The position numbers were made by a program, and so were the translations under genes. The notes under the pieces were generated by a model that had not been told where the DNA came from, ran no database searches, and was given only the letters and a program-made list of their open reading frames with translations. This document shows positions 6,863 to 44,828 of a stretch of 62,816 bases of DNA, in pieces (within the stretch, counting starts at the first letter, position 1; every line of letters starts with the position of its first letter). Origin of the DNA: Candidatus Methanomethylophilaceae archaeon (lineage in GTDB: Archaea > Thermoplasmatota > Thermoplasmata > Methanomassiliicoccales > Methanomethylophilaceae); the NCBI GenBank assembly GCA_017540825.1, contig JAFYAH010000047.1, positions 1-62,816 of the forward strand, read 5' to 3'.

Positions 6863-8275
6863 ATGGGAGCCTCGGCTGAGAAGGACCTCGGGACCATGCT
6901 CGGAGACCCGAGGAAGGCGGTGCTGACTATGTCGGTGCCCCTGATCGTCTCGTACCTCGTGGTGCAGGCGAACAGCTTCGCGGACGCGTCCTGGTGCTCC
7001 GGCCTGGGCGTAGATGCGAGCTCCGCCGTAGCGGCCATCTGCCCCATATACTGGATACTCAACGGGCTCGGGGCCGGGATCGGGGTGGGGACGTCGGCCG
7101 TAGTGTCGAGGCGCCTCGCCTTGGGAAGAAGGGGATCGGCCGATGGCGCCGCCGCCAGCGCGCTAGCGATATCCCTGCTGATGGCCCTGGCATGCATCCC
7201 CGCCATGCTGGTGCTCCTGGACCCGTGCATCTCGTGGCTGGGCGCGGACGATATCCGCGAGGAATGCGCCAGCTACATACTGCCGGTGATCGCCCTCTCC
7301 CCGTTCAACGTCCTCTCGGGGACCTTGGCCGGGACGCTTAGGGGGGAAGGCGCGGCCAGGAAGACCATGCTGATGATGTCGGCGGCCGCGGTGGCGAACA
7401 TGGTCCTCGACCCCCTCCTGATATACGGCCTGGGCATGGGGCTCTTCGGCGCCGGGCTCGCCACGGCAGCGTCGTCCGCCGTTTCGTGCGCCATGTGCGC
7501 GTTCTGGTACCTCCGCGGCAGCCTGGTCATCAGGCCGGGGCTGTCGGGCATCTCCGGACAGGAGGCCGCGACGATACTCCGCGCCGGGGCGCCGCGCGCC
7601 GTGGAGTACTTCCTGGTCTACTTCATGTCCATGGTGCAGAGGGTACTGATAATATCCGGGAGCGGCACCACCGCCGTGGCGTACTACTCCATGACTTGGA
7701 TGTACGTGTCCCTGGCCTGCGTCATATCCCTGGCGATCGGCGCCGCCCTGGTACCGGTGTGCTCGGCCGCGCTGGCCAGGAAGGACGCGGCCAAGGCGGA
7801 CGCCGCCATCCGGTACTCCTGCAGGATCTGCGTCGTCTCCATGGCCGCCATAGCCGTGGCGCTCTTCCTCGTGGCGGAGGCGGCCGTCGTGCCGTTCACC
7901 TACTCAGAGACCATGGCTCCCCTCCGCTCGAAGTTCGCATGGGTCCTCAGGGTCTACTGCACGTTCATCCCGGTCATAGGGCTCATAGACGTGGGATCGT
8001 CCATGCTGCAGGCCATGGGCAGGCCGAACGTCTCCTTGGCGTCCTCGTTCGTCAGGAACCTGATCATCATCGCGCTTCTGGCGGCCACCGCGGGGATGTC
8101 GCCCCATTCGGTGTTCTACAGCCTCGCCGCGTCGGAGCTGATAGGGACCGCGATCATGATAGTGCCCGCCTGGCTGCTGTTCGAGGAGTACAAGAGGGCC
8201 GGGAGGCTGCGGCGCAGGGTCTGGCGACGACGATGTCTGCCGGCGGGCAAACCTTTTTCGAACCGCACAGGCTGA
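6863..8275 (+). CDS. MATE-family multidrug exporter
   Basis: About 470 residues with roughly twelve hydrophobic segments in two homologous halves. The first begins KAVLTMSVPLIVSYLVVQ and includes a VDPLLI-like segment (MVLDPLLIYGLGMGLFGAGLATA), both typical of MATE transporters, which exchange cationic drugs or metabolites for Na+ or H+. The ATG at 6863 lies 25-35 bases after a TATA box (ATTATACAT, 6831-6839), supporting a leaderless start. The SIMPL-domain gene follows after 21 bases. The Arg-rich tail after EEYKRAGRL is unusual. Confidence 0.88.
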   Translation: MGASAEKDLGTMLGDPRKAVLTMSVPLIVSYLVVQANSFADASWCSGLGVDASSAVAAICPIYWILNGLGAGIGVGTSAVVSRRLALGRRGSADGAAASALAISLLMALACIPAMLVLLDPCISWLGADDIREECASYILPVIALSPFNVLSGTLAGTLRGEGAARKTMLMMSAAAVANMVLDPLLIYGLGMGLFGAGLATAASSAVSCAMCAFWYLRGSLVIRPGLSGISGQEAATILRAGAPRAVEYFLVYFMSMVQRVLIISGSGTTAVAYYSMTWMYVSLACVISLAIGAALVPVCSAALARKDAAKADAAIRYSCRICVVSMAAIAVALFLVAEAAVVPFTYSETMAPLRSKFAWVLRVYCTFIPVIGLIDVGSSMLQAMGRPNVSLASSFVRNLIIIALLAATAGMSPHSVFYSLAASELIGTAIMIVPAWLLFEEYKRAGRLRRRVWRRRCLPAGKPFSNRTG

Positions 8276-9692: not shown

Positions 9693-10984
9693 GCAAAGCG
9701 ATCCGGAACGCGATAGATTCGATAGCCGGCAAGAAGCATAAGGAGCCTGAAGAACCTCTCGAACCGAAAGACGAGCCCAGTAAGGAGCCCGCGAGCGATG
9801 CCCAGTTCGCCCCTATGACGGACGCCTCCACGTTCTGTGTCGGGAGGACGTACGTTCCCAGCCTCAGCTTCAACAGGATCTGGCGCTTCAACCGCCCTTT
9901 TCTGAAGGAGGAGGACCAGAAGATCTACGATGCCATGAGCGTGGCCATCAAGCAATGCCTGCCGTCCATCAAGTTCGACTGCGGAAGAGCCGCGAAAGAC
10001 GCCCACTACCTGATCAATGTCCTTGCGGCCCTCATGGAGGACGACCCCTCGCTCTTCTACATCGACTCGGAGATAAGCGTGAACAACTACGGGACCTCCG
10101 CGCAGGTCATATTCAAATACAACCGCTTCAAGGATGACAGGGAGAAGTACTACGAGCAGATGAAGTCCGTGGCCAGGCAGATATACAACGCCAGGGTCAG
10201 GTACTGCCATACAGTGTACGAAGCCGAGCTGGCCATCCACGACTACTTCACCAGGAACACGACCTACGACAGCTCGGACTTCGCCTCCGCCCACAGCCCC
10301 GTAGGCCCCCTTCTCACCAACAGGGGAGTCTGCGAGGGGATTTCCGAAGCCTACTGCTTCGTGGCCTGCGCGTGCGGCGTAAAGACGGCGATGGCCTCCG
10401 GGATCCTCAACAAGGACAGGCACCGCTGGAACATAGTGGAGATCGAGGGGCAGCCCTACCATCTGGATGTCACGTCGGACCTCAACGGGATGCATGCCTA
10501 CTTCAACTGCAGCGACGACCGGATTCGCCGCACCCATACCCTCAACCGCAGGTATGGATGCGTCTCCATGGCCCACAACTACTATGTCATGAACGGAGCC
10601 AGCTTCGGGAGCCTGAAAGAAGCGGGGACCTATATCCGTCTGAAGTCGGGAATCGTGCCGGGATCCTTCGAGTTCGCTATAGACGAGGAAACCGACTCGC
10701 AGTCCATAATGGCGGCGGTCCAGGACGGCATTACCAGATCGGCCACCATAACCGTGTCTTCCAACAACGGATGCTTCAAAGTAACTCTGAAGGATATGAG
10801 TCGATGGCCGGAACCCCGGAATGGTCTGACCGAAAGGTCTCCGGACGAAGCCCCGGTGCATTGCATAGGTTCAGCGCCCTGCGATCGAATTCATAAAACT
10901 ATAGCGAAACCCGCGACATCTGAATGGATGCACCATAATTATCACTATAGCCTACATAAATTGATGCTGTCTCGCCTGACGTAG
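9677..10984 (+). CDS. Transglutaminase-like cysteine protease-fold protein (paralogue 1)
   Basis: A cytoplasmic-looking protein with a basic then Pro/Glu-rich N-terminus (residues 15-45) and a transglutaminase-like domain. The catalytic triad is visible: Cys in GVCEGISEAY (about residue 219), His in HRWNIVEIEG (about 250) and Asp in HLDVTSD (about 264). GGAGGAGAC stands a few bases before the ATG. It is strongly similar along its whole length to the protein at 12650-13786, whose stop aligns near base 10797. This copy continues 60 unrelated residues to a TAG overlapping the next gene, so its original stop appears lost. Confidence 0.78.
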   Translation: MALGLGKAIRNAIDSIAGKKHKEPEEPLEPKDEPSKEPASDAQFAPMTDASTFCVGRTYVPSLSFNRIWRFNRPFLKEEDQKIYDAMSVAIKQCLPSIKFDCGRAAKDAHYLINVLAALMEDDPSLFYIDSEISVNNYGTSAQVIFKYNRFKDDREKYYEQMKSVARQIYNARVRYCHTVYEAELAIHDYFTRNTTYDSSDFASAHSPVGPLLTNRGVCEGISEAYCFVACACGVKTAMASGILNKDRHRWNIVEIEGQPYHLDVTSDLNGMHAYFNCSDDRIRRTHTLNRRYGCVSMAHNYYVMNGASFGSLKEAGTYIRLKSGIVPGSFEFAIDEETDSQSIMAAVQDGITRSATITVSSNNGCFKVTLKDMSRWPEPRNGLTERSPDEAPVHCIGSAPCDRIHKTIAKPATSEWMHHNYHYSLHKLMLSRLT

Positions 10985-36355: not shown

Positions 36356-37846
36356 TCAGGCCTCCTCGGTGCGCCTCTTCTTGGGCTTGTACTCGAGGTT
36401 GACCGCTCCGGTTCCCAGCGTGACGGGCTGTCCGACTATGATGTTCTCGGTGACTCCTTCCAGGTGGTCCACCTCGCCCACCATCGCCGCGTGCAGCAGA
36501 TGCGCCGCGGTGATCTCGAACGCCGCCCTTGCGAGGACGGAGGACTTCTTTCCGGATATTCCGTGCCTTCCGATGGCCTTGACGTACCCGTCGTTGGTCA
36601 TCAGGTCCGCGACCAGCATGATGTGCCTTATGTCGACGTTGAGACCGGCCTCTCCCAGGGTGCCCTTGGCCTCGCGGATGAGCGCGTTCCTGGCGGCCTC
36701 TATCCCGAGGACGTCGGCGACCTCCAGGATGCTGTTGGTCATGACGTTCTCGACCTCGACGCCCCTCACCTTGAGGACCTCCCTGAGGTTGCTCCCCTCG
36801 GTGATGATGGTCCATCCGCCGGACTCCTTGGAAAGGACGGCCCTGGTTATGCCGTCGATCCCTTTGATCTTGGTGCTCTTTATGGAGTCGTACATCTGCT
36901 GGAGCTTCTTGAAGGAGGGCTCGTCGGACCTCACGATGATGTTTATCTTCTTCACGGGGTCGATCTCGACGTTGCGGACGCCCTTGGCCTTCTTCAGCCT
37001 GTCCCTGATGTCCTCGGAGGTTATCCCCTTCTCGGATATCTTCCTGGCGTCGGGAACGATCACGAGCTCCATGTTCGTGATGTTCGTCTGTATGCTGGCC
37101 ACGTCCAGGAGGGTGGTGACCTCTATCTCGGAAGCTATGTGGCGGGCCACGCCTTCGTCGACCGGGCCGCCGTCTATCTCCGCCACCAGGGGTATCTCCA
37201 TGGACGGGGTCGCGGGTATGCGCCTGGCGTCCACGATCTCGATCAGCCTGGGCAGACCCTGGGTGACGTTGACGTTGGCGACTCCCGCGTAGTGGAAAGT
37301 ACGCATGTTCATCTGGGTTCCGGGCTCTCCTAGGGAGTGGGCGGCCATGACTCCTGCGGACTCGTTCTGGTCCATGGTGTGGGAGACGTACATCCTGTGG
37401 GCGGTCCTGACGAGGTCCTCTCCCCTCTTCTCGACGTACTCCAGGCACTCCTCGTCGTGGTAGACCCTCTTGATGCGCGCGGCGATGTCCAGGATTATCT
37501 TGACGGGAAGCTCCGGGTCCAGGCCCTTCCCGAACTCCTAGAGCCTCTTCTCGGCCGCGTCGCAGTCGTTGAACTTGGCGTAGGCCTCGAAGATCTGCAC
37601 GGGCTCGGGCTCCTGCACCGCCACCTTCTTGGCCCTGCTGGACCCGGAAGAGGAGGACGAGGGCTTCTCGCGAATCGCCTTCAGTATCCCCTCCGCGCGG
37701 TCCTCGGGTATCCCGCATGCGGCTATGTCCTCCACGCTGGCCTCGCCTATGGCGCCTATGGTGTTGTAGCTCTTGACGAGCATCTCGGCGTCCTGCTCGC
37801 TCACGCCTCTCCTGACGAGAGCCTTGATTGTGTCCTTCTTTGCCAT
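36356..37846 (-). CDS. rpoA2: DNA-directed RNA polymerase subunit A'' with an in-frame UAG codon
   Basis: C-terminal part of the large polymerase subunit. The conserved block ESAGVMAAHSLGEPGTQMNM and FHYAGVANVNVTQGLPRL (bridge/trigger-loop region) follows an N-terminal helix-hairpin extension of about 100 residues. Codon 103 (37538-37540) is TAG. The frame is open on both sides: 102 codons before and 393 sense codons after, and the conserved core lies after it. Translating through UAG gives a 496-residue protein. Re-initiation at the next internal ATG (37393) would remove the extension and about 47 further residues of helix. The start follows rpoA1's TGA by two bases. Confidence 0.9.
37538..37540 (-). 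other. In-frame UAG in rpoA2 (candidate pyrrolysine or suppressed amber codon)
   Basis: The codons read AAG AGG CTC TAG GAG TTC GGG, that is AEKRL-UAG-EFGKGLDPELPV. The sequence on both sides forms one helical region in the same frame, and no indel is needed. A CAG-to-TAG change would explain its origin. Confidence 0.8.
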
Positions 37847-37848
37847 GA

Positions 37849-40794
37849 TCACTCGCCTCCGTCGTCTCCGTAGTCGTCTCCGCCGTCCTCGTCGCCTTCC
37901 GATTCGTCCGGGTCGGTGTACTCCATCTCGTCCTTCTCGCGGGTGGCGTAGTCGTCTCCGTCCGCAGCCTTGGACGAGGTCGGATGGATGAGCATCTCTG
38001 CCTCGTCCTCCGGGAGGACCTCGTAGAACAGGTCGTCCAGGTCGATGGCCTTTCCGCCGACCGTCCTGGAGGGGTCGATGCCGTCCTCGCCGTACTTGAA
38101 CTGGATGACGGTGCCCACGGTGTTCCTGACGGTCCCGTCGGACGTGAGCTTCAGGTCCTCCAGGGCCGACACGAGCCTCCTCTGCATGTATCCTGACCTG
38201 GACGTCCTGACCGCGGTATCGACCAGCCCCTCCCTTCCTCCCATGGCGTGGAAGAAGAACTCGGTGGGGGAGAGCCCGGTCTTGTAGGAGTTGGAGCAGA
38301 AGCCCCTGGCGTAGGCGCCGAGGTCGTCCCTCTCGAAGTGGGGGAGCGTCCTGCCGTGGTATCCTCTCGAGAGCCTCTCTCCACGGACGGCCTGCTGCCC
38401 GACGCACCCCGCCATCTGGGACAGGTTCAGCATCGAGCCGCGGGCTCCGGACTTGGCCATGATGACCGCGGGGTTCTCCATCCCGAGGTGCTTCTCGGCG
38501 ATCTCTCCCGCATGGTCACGGGCGTCTCCGAGAATCCCCATGACGTTGACCTCCAGGGTCTCCCTGAGGGAGCGCCCGGGCATGGCCTCCAGGGTGCCGT
38601 CGCGGTAGGACTCGACGTTCTTGGCCACCTTCTCTATGCACTCCTGGCTGTAGGTGAAGATCTGGTTGGCGGCCTCCTCGGGGATGTCCTCGTCGCCGAT
38701 CCCCGTGCTGAACCCGTGGTTCATGAGGGCGCCCAGGACCAGCCTGGTGACCTGGTTGATGAACTTGGCGGCGCGGGACGCCCCATAGTCGCGGGCTATG
38801 CGGTCGAGGATCCTGCCCTTGCTGTTGCCTATGCCCCTGACGTCGATGGTGCCGCACTCGAGGTTCCCGTTGCGGATCTTGACGTACGCGTCGTATCTGC
38901 AGTTCTCCTTCTGGCATCCCTCGCGGCAGTTGCGGCATATGTTCGCCTTGAAGGTGGCGTTGAAGTCCTCGGGGAGGATGATGGAGAACAGCTGCTTGCC
39001 GGTCCAGTAGGGCTCGCCCTTCTCGTCCGTGCCGGCGGGCTCGGGGATCTCGACGGACCAGTCCCTGGAGTCTGCCTTCTGGCTGTGGGCCCTGTCATCA
39101 GGGATGGCGCTCTCCCTCTGGGAGGCGGACCTGACGGGAAGCTTGAACAGGATGTTGGACGTCTGGAACCTGTCGAAGCGGGTGTCCCCGTGGGTGAGAT
39201 AGTACGCCCCTGTGATGTGGTCGTGGATGGCCCCTATGATGGGGCCTCCATACCTGGGCGACAGGATGTTCTCCTGGACCTGCATGAGTATGCGGGCCTC
39301 GGCGCGGGCCTCGTCCGACTGGAGGACGTGGAGGTTCATCTCGTCCCCGTCGAAGTCCGCGTTGTACGGAGGGCAGTCGCAGAGGTTGAACCTGAACGTC
39401 TTCCCCTCCATGATCTTGATGCGGTGGGCCATCATGGACATCCTGTGCAGCGAGGGCTGCCTGTTGAACAGGACGACGTCGCCCTCCATGAGCTGCCTCT
39501 CGACCACGTAGTCGATGTCGATGTTCTCGGCGACCTCGAACGCGTTCCTCTCGGTGACCCTGATCCTCCTGCCGTCGGCGCGTATGACGTAGTTCGCGCC
39601 GGGCTTGTAGGGGAACTCCATCTTGTCCATCATGGGGCCGCGCCTGATGATCTTCCTGACCTGCTCGATGTTTCTGGCGTTGACGTGCAGGGGGACGGTA
39701 AGCTCCCTGGCCGCGAAAATCGGCACCCCGACGTCGTTGATGGACAGCAGGGGGTCGGGGGAGATGACCGTACGCGCGGAGAAGTTCACGCGCTTACCGG
39801 ACAGGTTCGACCTGAAGCGCCCCTCCTTCCCCTTGAGCCTCTGGGCCAGGGTCTTGAGCGGGCGTCCGGACCTGTGCCTGGCCGGAGGTATCCCCGAGGT
39901 CTGGTTGTCGAAGTATGTGGTGACGTGGTACTGCAGGAGCTCCCACAGGTCCTCCACGATCAGCTGGGGTGCGCCCGCGTCGCGGTTCTCGCCCAGCCTC
40001 TGGTTGATCCTCAGCACGTCCACGAGCTTGTGGGTGAGGTCGTCCTCGGACCTGTCCCCGGAGTCGAGTGTGATGGAGGGCCTGACGGTGACGGGCGGCA
40101 CAGCCAGGGCGGTGAGCACCATCCACTCGGGCCTGCAGGTCTCGGGGTCCATCCCGAGCGTCCTGAGGTCCTCGTCCGGGATCCTCTCCAGCCTCTCGCG
40201 CACCTCCTTGGGGGTGAGCTTACTGCTGGCGGAGGTCTTGTTCGCTCCCGCTGCCACCTTCGCGGACTTGTCGCCGTTGTCCAGCCTGAACGTGGTGGGC
40301 TTGTCCAGCTTTATCTTCACCTGGGTGGCGCCGCAGTAGGGGCAGACCACGCCTTTGGAGGCGTCCTTGGCGGTCTCCTTGGAGAAGTTCTTCAGGTCGA
40401 TGGTGCCTCCGCCTAGCTCCTCCATCTTCTCCATGCTCTCCCTGCGGGCCTTCACCTGGTCGGCGCTGAGCATGAGCCTCCCGCACCTGCTGCAGGTGGA
40501 CTCCAGCATCATCTTGATGTCCTTGATGAACCCGACGTGGATGACGGGCATCGCGAGCTCTATGTGCCCGAAGTGCCCCGGGCACTCGTCCACCTTGCAC
40601 CCGCAGGTCTTGCAGCGGAGCCCGGGCTCGATAACGCCCATGTGGGGGTCCATGAGGCCCCTGGATATGGGGTATCCCTCGTCGTCGTAGGTGTCCGCTG
40701 TGATGATCTCGATCTTGGACATCTTCCTGATCTCTTCAGGGGAGACGCAGGAGAACTTGATCGATCCGATCTTCTTCGTGATTTCGTTGGTCAT
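37849..40794 (-). CDS. rpoA1: DNA-directed RNA polymerase subunit A'
   Basis: N-terminal two-thirds of the archaeal large subunit, 981 residues. Zinc sites [17 protein letters not shown] (near residue 55) and CSRCGRL are present, and the catalytic magnesium-binding [13 protein letters not shown] motif is near residue 470. The start at 40794 overlaps the rpoB stop (ATGA), which is firm evidence for this start over the longer open frame. The C-terminus is acidic ([16 protein letters not shown]), longer than usual. rpoA2 follows after two bases. Confidence 0.96.
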
Positions 40795-43700
40795 CTCAGA
40801 TCCTCCAGCTGGAGCCTCATGGCTACCCCGAGGGACAGCAGCTCGTCCATAAGCAGTTTGAATGCGTAGGAGGTCTGCACGAGATAGACGTTGGTCTTCT
40901 TGCAGACGGGACAGAACAGCGACCCGTTCTTGTCCATTATCGCTATGTGCCCGCACTTGGGGTTGCCGCAGATCCACTGCTTGGTCCCGTCGGACTCGTC
41001 CAGCAGACGGTCTTTGATGACCATGGCGGCGCCGTGGCCGATAAGGCAGTCGCGCTCCATCTCTCCGAACCTGAGCCCTCCCTGCCTGGAGCGCCCTTCC
41101 GTAGGCTGCCTGGTGAGGATCTGCACCGGCCCTCTGGACCTGACGTGCATCTTGCCGCTGACCATGTGGTGGAGCTTCTCGTAGAAGATGACCCCGGTGT
41201 AGACGTCGGCCTCGATCATGCGCCCGGTCCTCCCGTCGTACATGACCTCCTTCCCGGAGTCCTTGAAGCCGTTCCTCTTAAGCCCGTCGCGGATGGACGT
41301 CTCGTTCTCTCCCGAGAAGGCCGTTCCGTCGATGATGCGGCCCTCCATGGCCCCGACCTTGCCCGCGATCATCTCGAGCACGTGCCCGATGGTCATACGG
41401 GAAGGTATACCGTGGGGGTTGACCACGAGGTCGGGGGTGACCCCTTCCGCGGTGAAGGGCATGTCGCACTGGTCCACCAGCCTCCCGACGACTCCCTTCT
41501 GCCCGAACCTGGAGCAGAACTTGTCGCCGAGCTCGGGGATCCTCTCGTCCCTGACCTTCACGCGTACGAGCCTCGACCCGTTCTCCGACTCCGTGATCAT
41601 GACCGAGTCGACGTACCCGTTCTCTCCGGGCCTGACGGTCACGGACGTCTCCCTCCTCTTCTGGTTGGAGAGGTAGTTGTCGGTGCCCTCCTCGAGGAAC
41701 CTGGGCGGGGACGTCTTCCCTATCAGGACGTCGGAGCCCGTGACCTTGCTCTCGGGGGAGATGAGCCCGTCCTCTCCGAGCGAAGCGTACGCGGAGTCCA
41801 TGCGGGCGCCCATGATCTCGGGGCTGGGGATCTCGAAGTGGTCCTCCTGCCCGCCGGGATAGCGGCGCTCCTCGGTGCGGTAGGACCTCATGAAGGTGGA
41901 CCTCCCGAGGCCCCTCTGGACGGAGCTCTTGTTCATGACGAGCGCGTCCTCTATGTTGTACCCGTGGTAGGAGAGGACGGCGATGCAGAAGTTCTGCCCT
42001 GCAGGCCTGTGCTCGTACTTCATTATCTTCATTGACTGGGTCTGGACCATCGGGACCTGCGGGTACTGCATCAGATGGCCCCTGGTGTCAGGCCTGATGC
42101 GGTAGTTCGCGGTGGGTATCCCGAGGGCCTGCTTCCCCATCCCTGCTCCCATGGTGACACGGGGCGCGGAGTTGTGCTCCGGATACGGAACGATCCCCGA
42201 AGCGACCCCGAGGATGATCATCGGGTCGAGCTCCATGTGGGTGTGCTTAGCGTCGAACTTGCTGGGGACTTCGAAGTCGCCGCCGCACCAGACGCACTTG
42301 AGGATGGCGTCGGAGCCTTTCCCGGGGTTCATCCAGTCGGCGTCCTCGGGGGACAGCGCGTGCCCGCAGCAGGGGCACCTGCGGGGGACGTCGTACGGGC
42401 TGACCAGGATGAAGGCGTCTTCCTCCTCCTCCGCGTCCACCCACTCCACGATCCCCTCGCGGAACAGGTCGTCCCATCTGATCCTGCTGCTGTCTCCGCC
42501 GGCGGCGTCCAGGCTCTCGCGTATCCTCTCGATGTGCTTCCTGGTCAGGCAGAGCCTCCCGTTCTTGACGATGAGCAGGGGCCTCCTGAGGCGGCCCTCG
42601 TCGCAGTTGATGATGACCTCGTTCATGTCCTCGTCGAAGCGGATGTTGATCTGGCTGGATATGAGGCCGCAGCGCCTCCTGTCCCTGATGTCGTCCACCA
42701 GCTTCCTGGCGTCGGAATGCATCCCGCGGAGGTCCCCGTTGACGAACACGCGGGTGCCCTCCCCGGACTTCACCTCGTCGACCTCGAAGTCTCTGAGCAT
42801 CCAGTTGATGTCGTTCTCCGGGAATCCCTCGGAGACGTTGATTATGAGCGCTGCATTTTTGACGAGGCCGCAGTTCTGGCCTTCGGGGGTCTCGGAAGGG
42901 CAGAGCCTCCCCCACTGGGTGGGGTGCAGGTCACGCGCCTCGAAGTGGGGCTGGCTCCTGGTCAGGGACGAGGTTATCCTCCTGAGGTGGGACATGGCGG
43001 ACAGGTTGGACGTCCTGTCGAGCAGCTGGGAAACGCCTGCGCGGCCTCCGACCCAGTTCCCGGTTGAGAGGGCGTGGATGAGCTTGTGCGTCAGGAGGTC
43101 GGGGCGTATGGACGACCTGATCGTGGGGGTCTCGTTCTTCTTCCTGTTCCAGTTCCTCTCGAGCTGGTACTTCAGGTCCTTCATCAGGCTGCTGAAGCTG
43201 GTCCTGAAGAGGTCCTCCATGAGGTCGCCGGAGAGCTTGAGCCTCTTGTTGGCGTAATGGTCCTTGTCGTCCTCCTTCCTCTTCCCGAGGGAGAGCTCCA
43301 GGACGGAGCGCGCGACGCGGCCGAGGAATATCGCCTTCTTCTTGCGGTCGTCGACCGTGTCTCCCAGGTGGGGCAGGAGGGAGCGGTCGAGGATGTTCTC
43401 GACCTTCTTCGTCCTGTACTCCTTTGCCTGGCCGGCGGCGAAGTTCCTCTCGAGGAAAAGGATCGCGTCGTCCTTGGTGTGGAACCCGTTGGGGACGTAG
43501 GTCTTCTTGTCGTAGGACGACTCGATGTTGGCGTAGACGATGTTCTCCATCTGCTCGTCCGAGACTATGGCCTCGAATATCTCCTGGTCGGACTCCATGC
43601 CGAGGGCCTTCATCAGGGCGACGAGGGGTATGGAGCTGGACGTGACTGGGACGGACACCATGAGCGTGCCGTCCTTCTTCTTCTCCACGAGGGTGAGCGC

Positions 43701-44423
43701 GCGGTAGCCGTCCTTCTGGGAGAACACCTTGGCCATCTCGACGGCGGTCCCGTACCTCTCGTTGTACTCGACCATGACCCTGTTGGGCGCGAGGTCCTCC
43801 AGCGTTATGAGGACCCTCTCGGACCCGGCTATTATGAAGTACCCTCCGGGCTCCTCCGGGTCCTCCATGTTCTTGACGAGCTCCTGCTTGTACTCGGCCT
43901 CGGTGATGTTGTGGCCCTTGTGCTTCTCTATGACCGCCTTGTTGAGGTTGCATCCGGCGGACTTGACCATCATGGGGAGGTCCCCGACGTGGACCCATTT
44001 CTCCTCCTCGGGCATCTCGACCTCTTCGCCGTTCCTCTCGATCTCGAAGCGGACGTAGACCGGGGACATGTAGTTGAGGTTCCTGAGCCTGGCCTCCATC
44101 GGGGTCAGCTCGTGGCTGTAGCCGTTCGCCTCGGCGGTGCAGGGCTCCTCGATGCGGATGGTGGGCTTGGCCTGGGAGTCGATCTTGCCCTCGCTGTCCC
44201 TCTTCCTCCCGAGGCGGATGACGACGTCGGCGCCCCCGGTGCGCTCGGGGTCCAGCCTTATCACTCCGCGCTCGGAGTCGTCGGTCGGGACCCTGATGTC
44301 GTCCACTATCCTCTGCATCCTGCTGTTGGGGTTGTCGGGCGTGGCTAGGAAATCGTTGAAGGACGAGGTGTGGTGGGAGACGATGTCGTGCTCGGAGAAA
44401 TACAGCTTCACTAGATCCCTCAA
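40791..44423 (-). CDS. rpoB: DNA-directed RNA polymerase subunit B
   Basis: Undivided 1210-residue second-largest subunit; many methanogens split it into B' and B''. Landmarks: [20 protein letters not shown] (fork region), zinc-binding CPCCGHAL...[18 protein letters not shown]-like [13 protein letters not shown], the [15 protein letters not shown] active-site lysine region, and a C-terminal zinc ribbon CGNPKCG...CPVCKKT. The start codon is TTG at 44423, with GGTGAG just upstream, four bases after the rpoH stop. Undivided B agrees with Thermoplasmata-type lineages. Confidence 0.96.
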
Positions 44424-44427
44424 CGGC

Positions 44428-44718
44428 TCACCCCCTCGTGACGAGCCTGTACCCGACGAACCTGTGGGCGGTCTCGCTCTTCCTGACCACCTCTATGACG
44501 CAGCCCTCCTCTATGGAGGTCTACGAGCCGAGTATGGCCCTGGCCTCGGCGGTCTTCTCCAAGGCCTTGATGCCGGGATCGTTTTTCCTTATCTTGGGAA
44601 GCTTGTCCTTGGTTATTCCTTTGGCCTCGAGAACGGCCTTCTCCTCGTCCAAACTGAGAAGCCTGTGCTCGGGCACCAGATCATGCTTCAGAACATTAAA
44701 CGTATAATCGGTTGCCAC
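44428..44718 (-). CDS. rpoH: DNA-directed RNA polymerase subunit H with an in-frame UAG codon
   Basis: RpoH (Rpb5 C-terminal-like) opens [20 protein letters not shown], as in other archaea. Codon 66 (44521-44523) is TAG. The essential conserved end, [20 protein letters not shown], lies after it in the same frame and finishes at TGA (44428), four bases before rpoB. Without UAG readthrough the protein would lose its most conserved segment. I chose GTG at 44718 because GGGTGAG lies four bases upstream; GTG at 44727 is possible. The leader contains a CCCGG-TCAG-CCGGG hairpin (44738-44751) after a TATA-like TTTTTTAA. Confidence 0.9.
44521..44523 (-). other. In-frame UAG in rpoH (candidate pyrrolysine or suppressed amber codon)
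   Basis: Codons read CTC GGC TCG TAG ACC TCC ATA, that is [20 protein letters not shown]. The frame is unbroken on both sides, and the invariant VRKSETA...YRLV part of RpoH follows. No frameshift is needed to connect the two halves. Confidence 0.85.
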
Positions 44719-44828
44719 GTGTCTCACCCTTTTACGGCCCGGTCAGCCGGGAATTCGTTTTCGTTAAAAAATGTGACTGTCATTCCTGCCTCATACTTGA
44801 TCCGCCGTCGATCGCTCATGAAGTTGAT

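Follow-up and report, generated by a model that had tools for sequence, protein, structure and literature searches.

Pyrrolysine coding in related methanogens

Two of the closest described systems belong to other members of the order Methanomassiliicoccales. For Candidatus Methanomethylophilus alvus, the accessible part of the published study reports that TAG is read through in 16 conserved genes besides the methyltransferases and suggests that a TAG in a major gene renders the pyl cassette essential (Borrel et al. 2014, PMC4153887). The archaeon studied here, from a genus that includes assembly UBA71, shares both the order and the pyl cassette with M. alvus. However, the term RNA polymerase has no occurrence in the accessible part of that study, and TAG stops amount to 1.6% there (PMC4153887) compared with about 6% in a rough sample of our genome. 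For ISO4-H5, a rumen archaeon of the same order, the available part of the report describes 46 genes with in-frame amber codons, including adenylate kinase, but names no RNA polymerase subunit, and the conservation of such codons across species is not its subject (PMC5011839).

Pyrrolysine (Pyl) coding of many genes, some of them essential, is thus known in the order, and the decoding mechanism is therefore not new. A 2025 study by Kivenson et al. in Science reportedly describes an archaeal 'Pyl code' in which TAG is a consistent pyrrolysine codon, with proteomic support. Our genome differs in that some genes seem to terminate at TAG as well, which leaves the reassignment of every TAG to sense as only a possibility here. 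Pyrrolysine is also said to occur in the tRNA-His guanylyltransferase of Methanosarcina, a housekeeping protein for which Heinemann et al. reportedly put forward a neutral evolution explanation in 2009; that case concerns one protein, whereas here two subunits of a universal enzyme are affected, kept over at least seven species. In a comparison that left the 2025 study aside, we found no earlier report of pyrrolysine in RNA polymerase subunits. The novelty lies in the pyrrolysine predicted for core subunits of RNA polymerase and retained in seven species (the rpoH TAG in six, the rpoA2 TAG in seven). This outweighs an ordinary Pyl-containing gene, since RNA polymerase is a universal, essential enzyme and its rpoH and rpoA2 codons have persisted in at least six and at least seven species, respectively.

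In-frame TAG codons in rpoH and rpoA2

The window, that is, the whole stretch of 62,816 nucleotides analysed here, carries the gene order rpoH-rpoB-rpoA1-rpoA2 on its minus strand. The rpoH gene (RNA polymerase subunit H, Rpo5; 44431–44727, minus strand) begins with GTG and has 99 codons with TAG as sense, followed by TGA at 44428–44430, immediately 5′ of rpoB. The plus strand reads CTA at 44521–44523, hence TAG on the minus strand, and translation from 44727 to 44431 with TAG as sense yields a 99-residue RpoH with the putative pyrrolysine (O) as residue 69. A preliminary description of this DNA had placed an in-frame UAG at this point, with the conserved RpoH C-terminus behind it in the same frame and closed by TGA before rpoB. 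Both statements are confirmed by the translation and by Pfam: the invariant block VRKSETA...YRLV lies 3′ of the TAG, and the whole RNA_pol_Rpb5_C profile (PF01191, positions 1–73, E 1.7e-22) spans the codon. The PF01191 domain with its fold, the adjacency to rpoB and the single copy together are all the hallmarks of the RpoH/Rpb5 C-terminal family. An alternative intact rpoH was looked for with the PF01191 profile, and none was found in the genome (2.37 Mb, 95.6% complete), in which the rpoH of the operon is the only match.

The second in-frame TAG that had been claimed for the same operon was located at 37538–37540 (minus strand) within rpoA2 (subunit A'', Rpo1C; 36359–37846, minus strand, read through its TAG) and likewise putatively encodes pyrrolysine. 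No in-frame TAG lies within rpoB (40797–44423), the only PF00562 match in the genome, or within rpoA1 (A', Rpo1N; 37852–40797), both on the minus strand. A second rpoA2 was not found on search either, which supports the earlier view that two polymerase subunits need UAG decoding for full length. The alignment, in which residues were read by eye, shows mostly Lys and sometimes Met at the rpoA2 TAG column in other congeners. The TAG lies between an N-terminal extension and the portion represented in solved Rpo1C structures; the extension (window 37600–37846, minus strand) gives a weak match to the helix-hairpin-helix profile PF14520, below the cut-off.

The comparison of rpoH among relatives, suggested as a check in the preliminary description, covered 147 genomes of the order and returned a match in 131. 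Exactly six of these, all from the same genus, carry the in-frame TAG, at an identical codon-alignment column in every subclade species where rpoH was found (6/6); most of the remaining matches are 27 bases shorter than theirs, and the other 125 genomes lack the codon. The rpoA2 TAG is present in all seven subclade genomes and in none of 19 other congeners, and in the RpoA2 tree the seven species form one clade on a long stem (support 100/99). The subclade assemblies were generated by separate ruminant studies (SIG, RGIG and RUG series). As all of them are metagenome assemblies, one might suspect a decayed gene or a mistake in sequencing or assembly. However, six (rpoH) and seven (rpoA2) species sequenced in separate projects share the TAG at the same codon, amid many synonymous differences; sequencing error is thereby ruled out, in line with the earlier judgement that chance error was improbable, and we regard error or decay as practically impossible.

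The preliminary description had further placed the rpoH TAG before the most conserved segment of the gene. This holds in that the conserved block follows the codon, but the codon itself sits in an inserted loop specific to the subclade. According to the alignment, the segment containing it (44512–44568, minus strand, approximate limits) exceeds that of congeners by about nine residues, with 21 protein letters in the subclade against VLESIHGPIDEG, and the flanking codons are variable (S, P, G or K before the TAG; T, D or E after it). In an AlphaFold2 model of RpoH built from 14 sequences (mean pLDDT 72), the TAG residue lies in a loop that follows a short helix (60–66) and precedes the C-terminal strands (77–83 and 89–97). 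The model matches the archaeal RNA polymerase subunit H (8oki_H, E 8e-8), and PDB homologues of RpoH have no such insertion. In RpoA2, the TAG residue is N-terminal to the region alignable with solved Rpo1C. The positions in a loop and ahead of the Rpo1C part suggest that the pyrrolysine side chains would be tolerated rather than catalytic.

Downstream of the TAG, pairwise comparison of the six subclade species gave dN values of 0–0.11 and dS values of 0.3–1.5; this segment of rpoH is under strong purifying selection. These data bear on whether UAG simply terminates translation, so that a truncated RpoH would work alone or a second fragment would be made by re-initiation, as the apparent ending of some other genes by TAG could suggest. 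Yet the post-TAG segment is the best conserved part of RpoH and forms, in the model, the two C-terminal strands, both of which a truncation at the TAG would remove. Moreover, no start codon 3′ of the TAG is common to the six species and one of them (G092) has none, so re-initiation does not explain rpoH. We therefore consider termination extremely improbable.

Polymerase genes vary in other respects within the order. Two full rpoA1 matches occur only in our genome (G000) and in G080, whereas rpoB and rpoH are single in G000. The additional copies are free-standing paralogues without other rpo genes alongside (L279:2534-5413 on contig C13 of G000, 960 aa; L280:8950-11820 on contig C43 of G080, 957 aa), which share 84% and 69% identity, respectively, with the G000 operon copy, lack about 25 N-terminal residues and have the active-site motif NADFDGDEM replaced by AADFDGDEM (G000) or GADFDGDEM (G080). 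In eight genomes of the same family (G028, G032, G037, G042, G043, G045, G046 and G114), the rpoA1 match to PF00623 is split in two, the parts being either neighbouring or distant; several of these pairs lie within a single open frame, as would be expected of an inserted segment.

Decoding machinery and proposed role of pyrrolysine

The genome encodes a full pylT-S-B-C-D cassette. PylS (255 bits, cut-off 178), PylB (433, cut-off 348) and PylC (296, cut-off 248) score above the curated cut-offs, the PylD homologue matches PDB entries 4q39/4j43 (E about 4e-33), and a tRNA-Pyl(CUA) adjoins pylS (ARAGORN, anticodon cta). As a positive control, MtmB was recovered at full length across its TAG (E 1.6e-228), a codon present in every congener where MtmB was found. 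With pylS, pylB, pylC, pylD, tRNA-Pyl(CUA) and a TAG in a methylamine methyltransferase, the genome has the complete set of features of Pyl-decoding archaea. The tRNA, PylS, PylB, PylC and the PylD homologue, together with the recurrence of the codons, support the earlier claim that UAG is decoded in rpoH and rpoA2. A PYLIS-like stem-loop was not found 3′ of the rpoH TAG (z -0.77); such a structure is not required for UAG decoding (PMC9499178).

A near-cognate or unrecognised suppressor tRNA might instead read UAG and insert a standard amino acid. With a genome 95.6% complete and a covariance-model search that missed pylT itself, because of the odd shape of this tRNA, an odd tRNA could escape detection. 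Nevertheless, of the 42 tRNA matches genome-wide, ARAGORN typed 41, none of which has a CUA anticodon; no extra amber suppressor tRNA was found among them, and pylT is the only CUA tRNA found. The presence of tRNA-Pyl with its synthetase and the TAG retained in MtmB also speak against such a tRNA, which we consider very unlikely.

We propose, with a probability of about 0.9, that UAG is read as sense in both rpoH and rpoA2, which would place pyrrolysine in two core polymerase subunits and make the pyl cassette indispensable for transcription. In this scenario, (i) PylBCD would make pyrrolysine and PylS would charge tRNA-Pyl with it; (ii) tRNA-Pyl would decode UAG, yielding both subunits at full length, with pyrrolysine at residue 69 of RpoH and in the N-terminal part of RpoA2; (iii) both codons would have been fixed in the common ancestor of the subclade, which comprises at least seven gut species, and retained since. 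The rpoA2 TAG would probably have come from a lysine codon (AAG to TAG, one change), and the rpoH TAG sits in the inserted loop. We infer that the inserted residue is pyrrolysine and that readthrough is efficient. Because rpoH and rpoA2 are single-copy genes for core polymerase subunits, the cassette would be indispensable whatever the growth substrate, and transcription without pyrrolysine is probably impossible in these cells.

If this is true, RNA polymerase contains the 22nd amino acid in two of its core subunits in a group of gut methanogens, and an amino acid of methylamine catabolism has become obligatory for life. Cells lacking the pyl cassette would have no complete polymerase, and the polymerase would in turn transcribe the cassette, making this a concrete and testable case of an expanded genetic code that is locked in: if pyrrolysine were no longer made or charged to its tRNA, these rumen methanogens should stop growing, even on methanol. 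In practical terms, standard gene calling in these genomes truncates RpoH and breaks RpoA2.

TAG as probable sense codon and apparent stop codon elsewhere in the genome

The wider use of TAG was surveyed in about 760 kb of the genome, comprising 615 sampled genes, with a rough codon score. TAG is followed by coding-like sequence in 28 of these genes (about 4.6%) and by non-coding sequence in about 38 (about 6%). The gene finder is rough, and the 28 include a few genes counted twice or called in questionable, TAG-rich frames. The corresponding figures for G076, a congener whose polymerase has no TAG, are eight and five of 378 genes, i.e. 2.1% against about 4.6% for internal TAGs and about 1.4% against about 6% for apparent gene ends. 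The subclade uses TAG more in both roles than G076. The eight genes of G076 with an internal TAG include those for MtmB-type and MtbB proteins, present because its sample held the methylamine cluster, as well as for MFS, GNAT, nucleoside phosphorylase-like and pseudouridine synthase proteins; Pyl coding outside methyltransferase genes thus occurs beyond the subclade, whereas the polymerase TAGs are restricted to it.

TAG thus also seems to end genes in our genome, unless extensions are tolerated. The archaeal release factor aRF1 is single-copy with intact NIKS and GGQ motifs; a change in aRF1 as the cause of a lost UAG recognition was considered and rejected, as the only subclade-specific changes are two minor ones (D57E and Y249F). 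Given the intact aRF1 and the roughly 38 of 615 apparent TAG ends, some termination at UAG may persist. Terminal TAGs were not followed by a significant excess of backup stops (p 0.095) in the genome.

A rival idea for rpoH and rpoA2 is dual decoding, in which termination by aRF1 and pyrrolysine readthrough compete, polymerase assembly tracks the supply of pyrrolysine and the codons are selected as a sensor. In its favour, the aRF1 motifs are present, TAG appears to end genes, and the two polymerase TAGs are retained while several others turn over. The TAG of an RPA-like OB-fold protein (L171:11550-13550, contig C1) occurs in this species only, with AAG (Lys) in five relatives, and those of an MgsA-like and a zinc-ribbon protein are common to the nearest relative only, with CTG and AAG in G092. 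On the other hand, the TAG of citrate synthase (L268:642-2003, contig C26) is also widely kept (five of seven subclade species, against AGG in two), so that the polymerase genes are not alone in their retention; both polymerase residues lie in a loop or linker, few sites were compared, and a polymerase shortage would be costly. We consider such sensing by dual decoding unlikely. It is similarly doubtful, and if anything more so, that pyrrolysine in RpoH and RpoA2 has been functionally selected, coupling polymerase assembly or activity to pyrrolysine supply and making the polymerase a methylamine or lysine sensor.

Other TAGs favour the preferred reading of UAG as a pyrrolysine sense codon. TAG interrupts Pfam domains in several further genes (e.g. 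NADAR, integrase and citrate synthase). Where TAG sites were compared, relatives carry a sense codon in the aligned, conserved column, which shows that TAG behaves as a sense codon there. Within this range of turnover, the two polymerase TAGs belong to the most stable; with the few sites compared, we do not claim selection on pyrrolysine itself.

Three minor observations concern individual TAGs. The citrate synthase of G084 is identical to that of G000 over 51 residues while its rpoA2 is only 71% identical, which suggests a transfer or a mis-binned contig. A TAG at window position 7163, initially a candidate internal codon, turned out to precede the start of the gene that follows it and has no value as evidence. 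Finally, a 367-aa gene in the window ends with TAG (10945–10947, minus strand) directly followed by TGA, forming a tandem stop.
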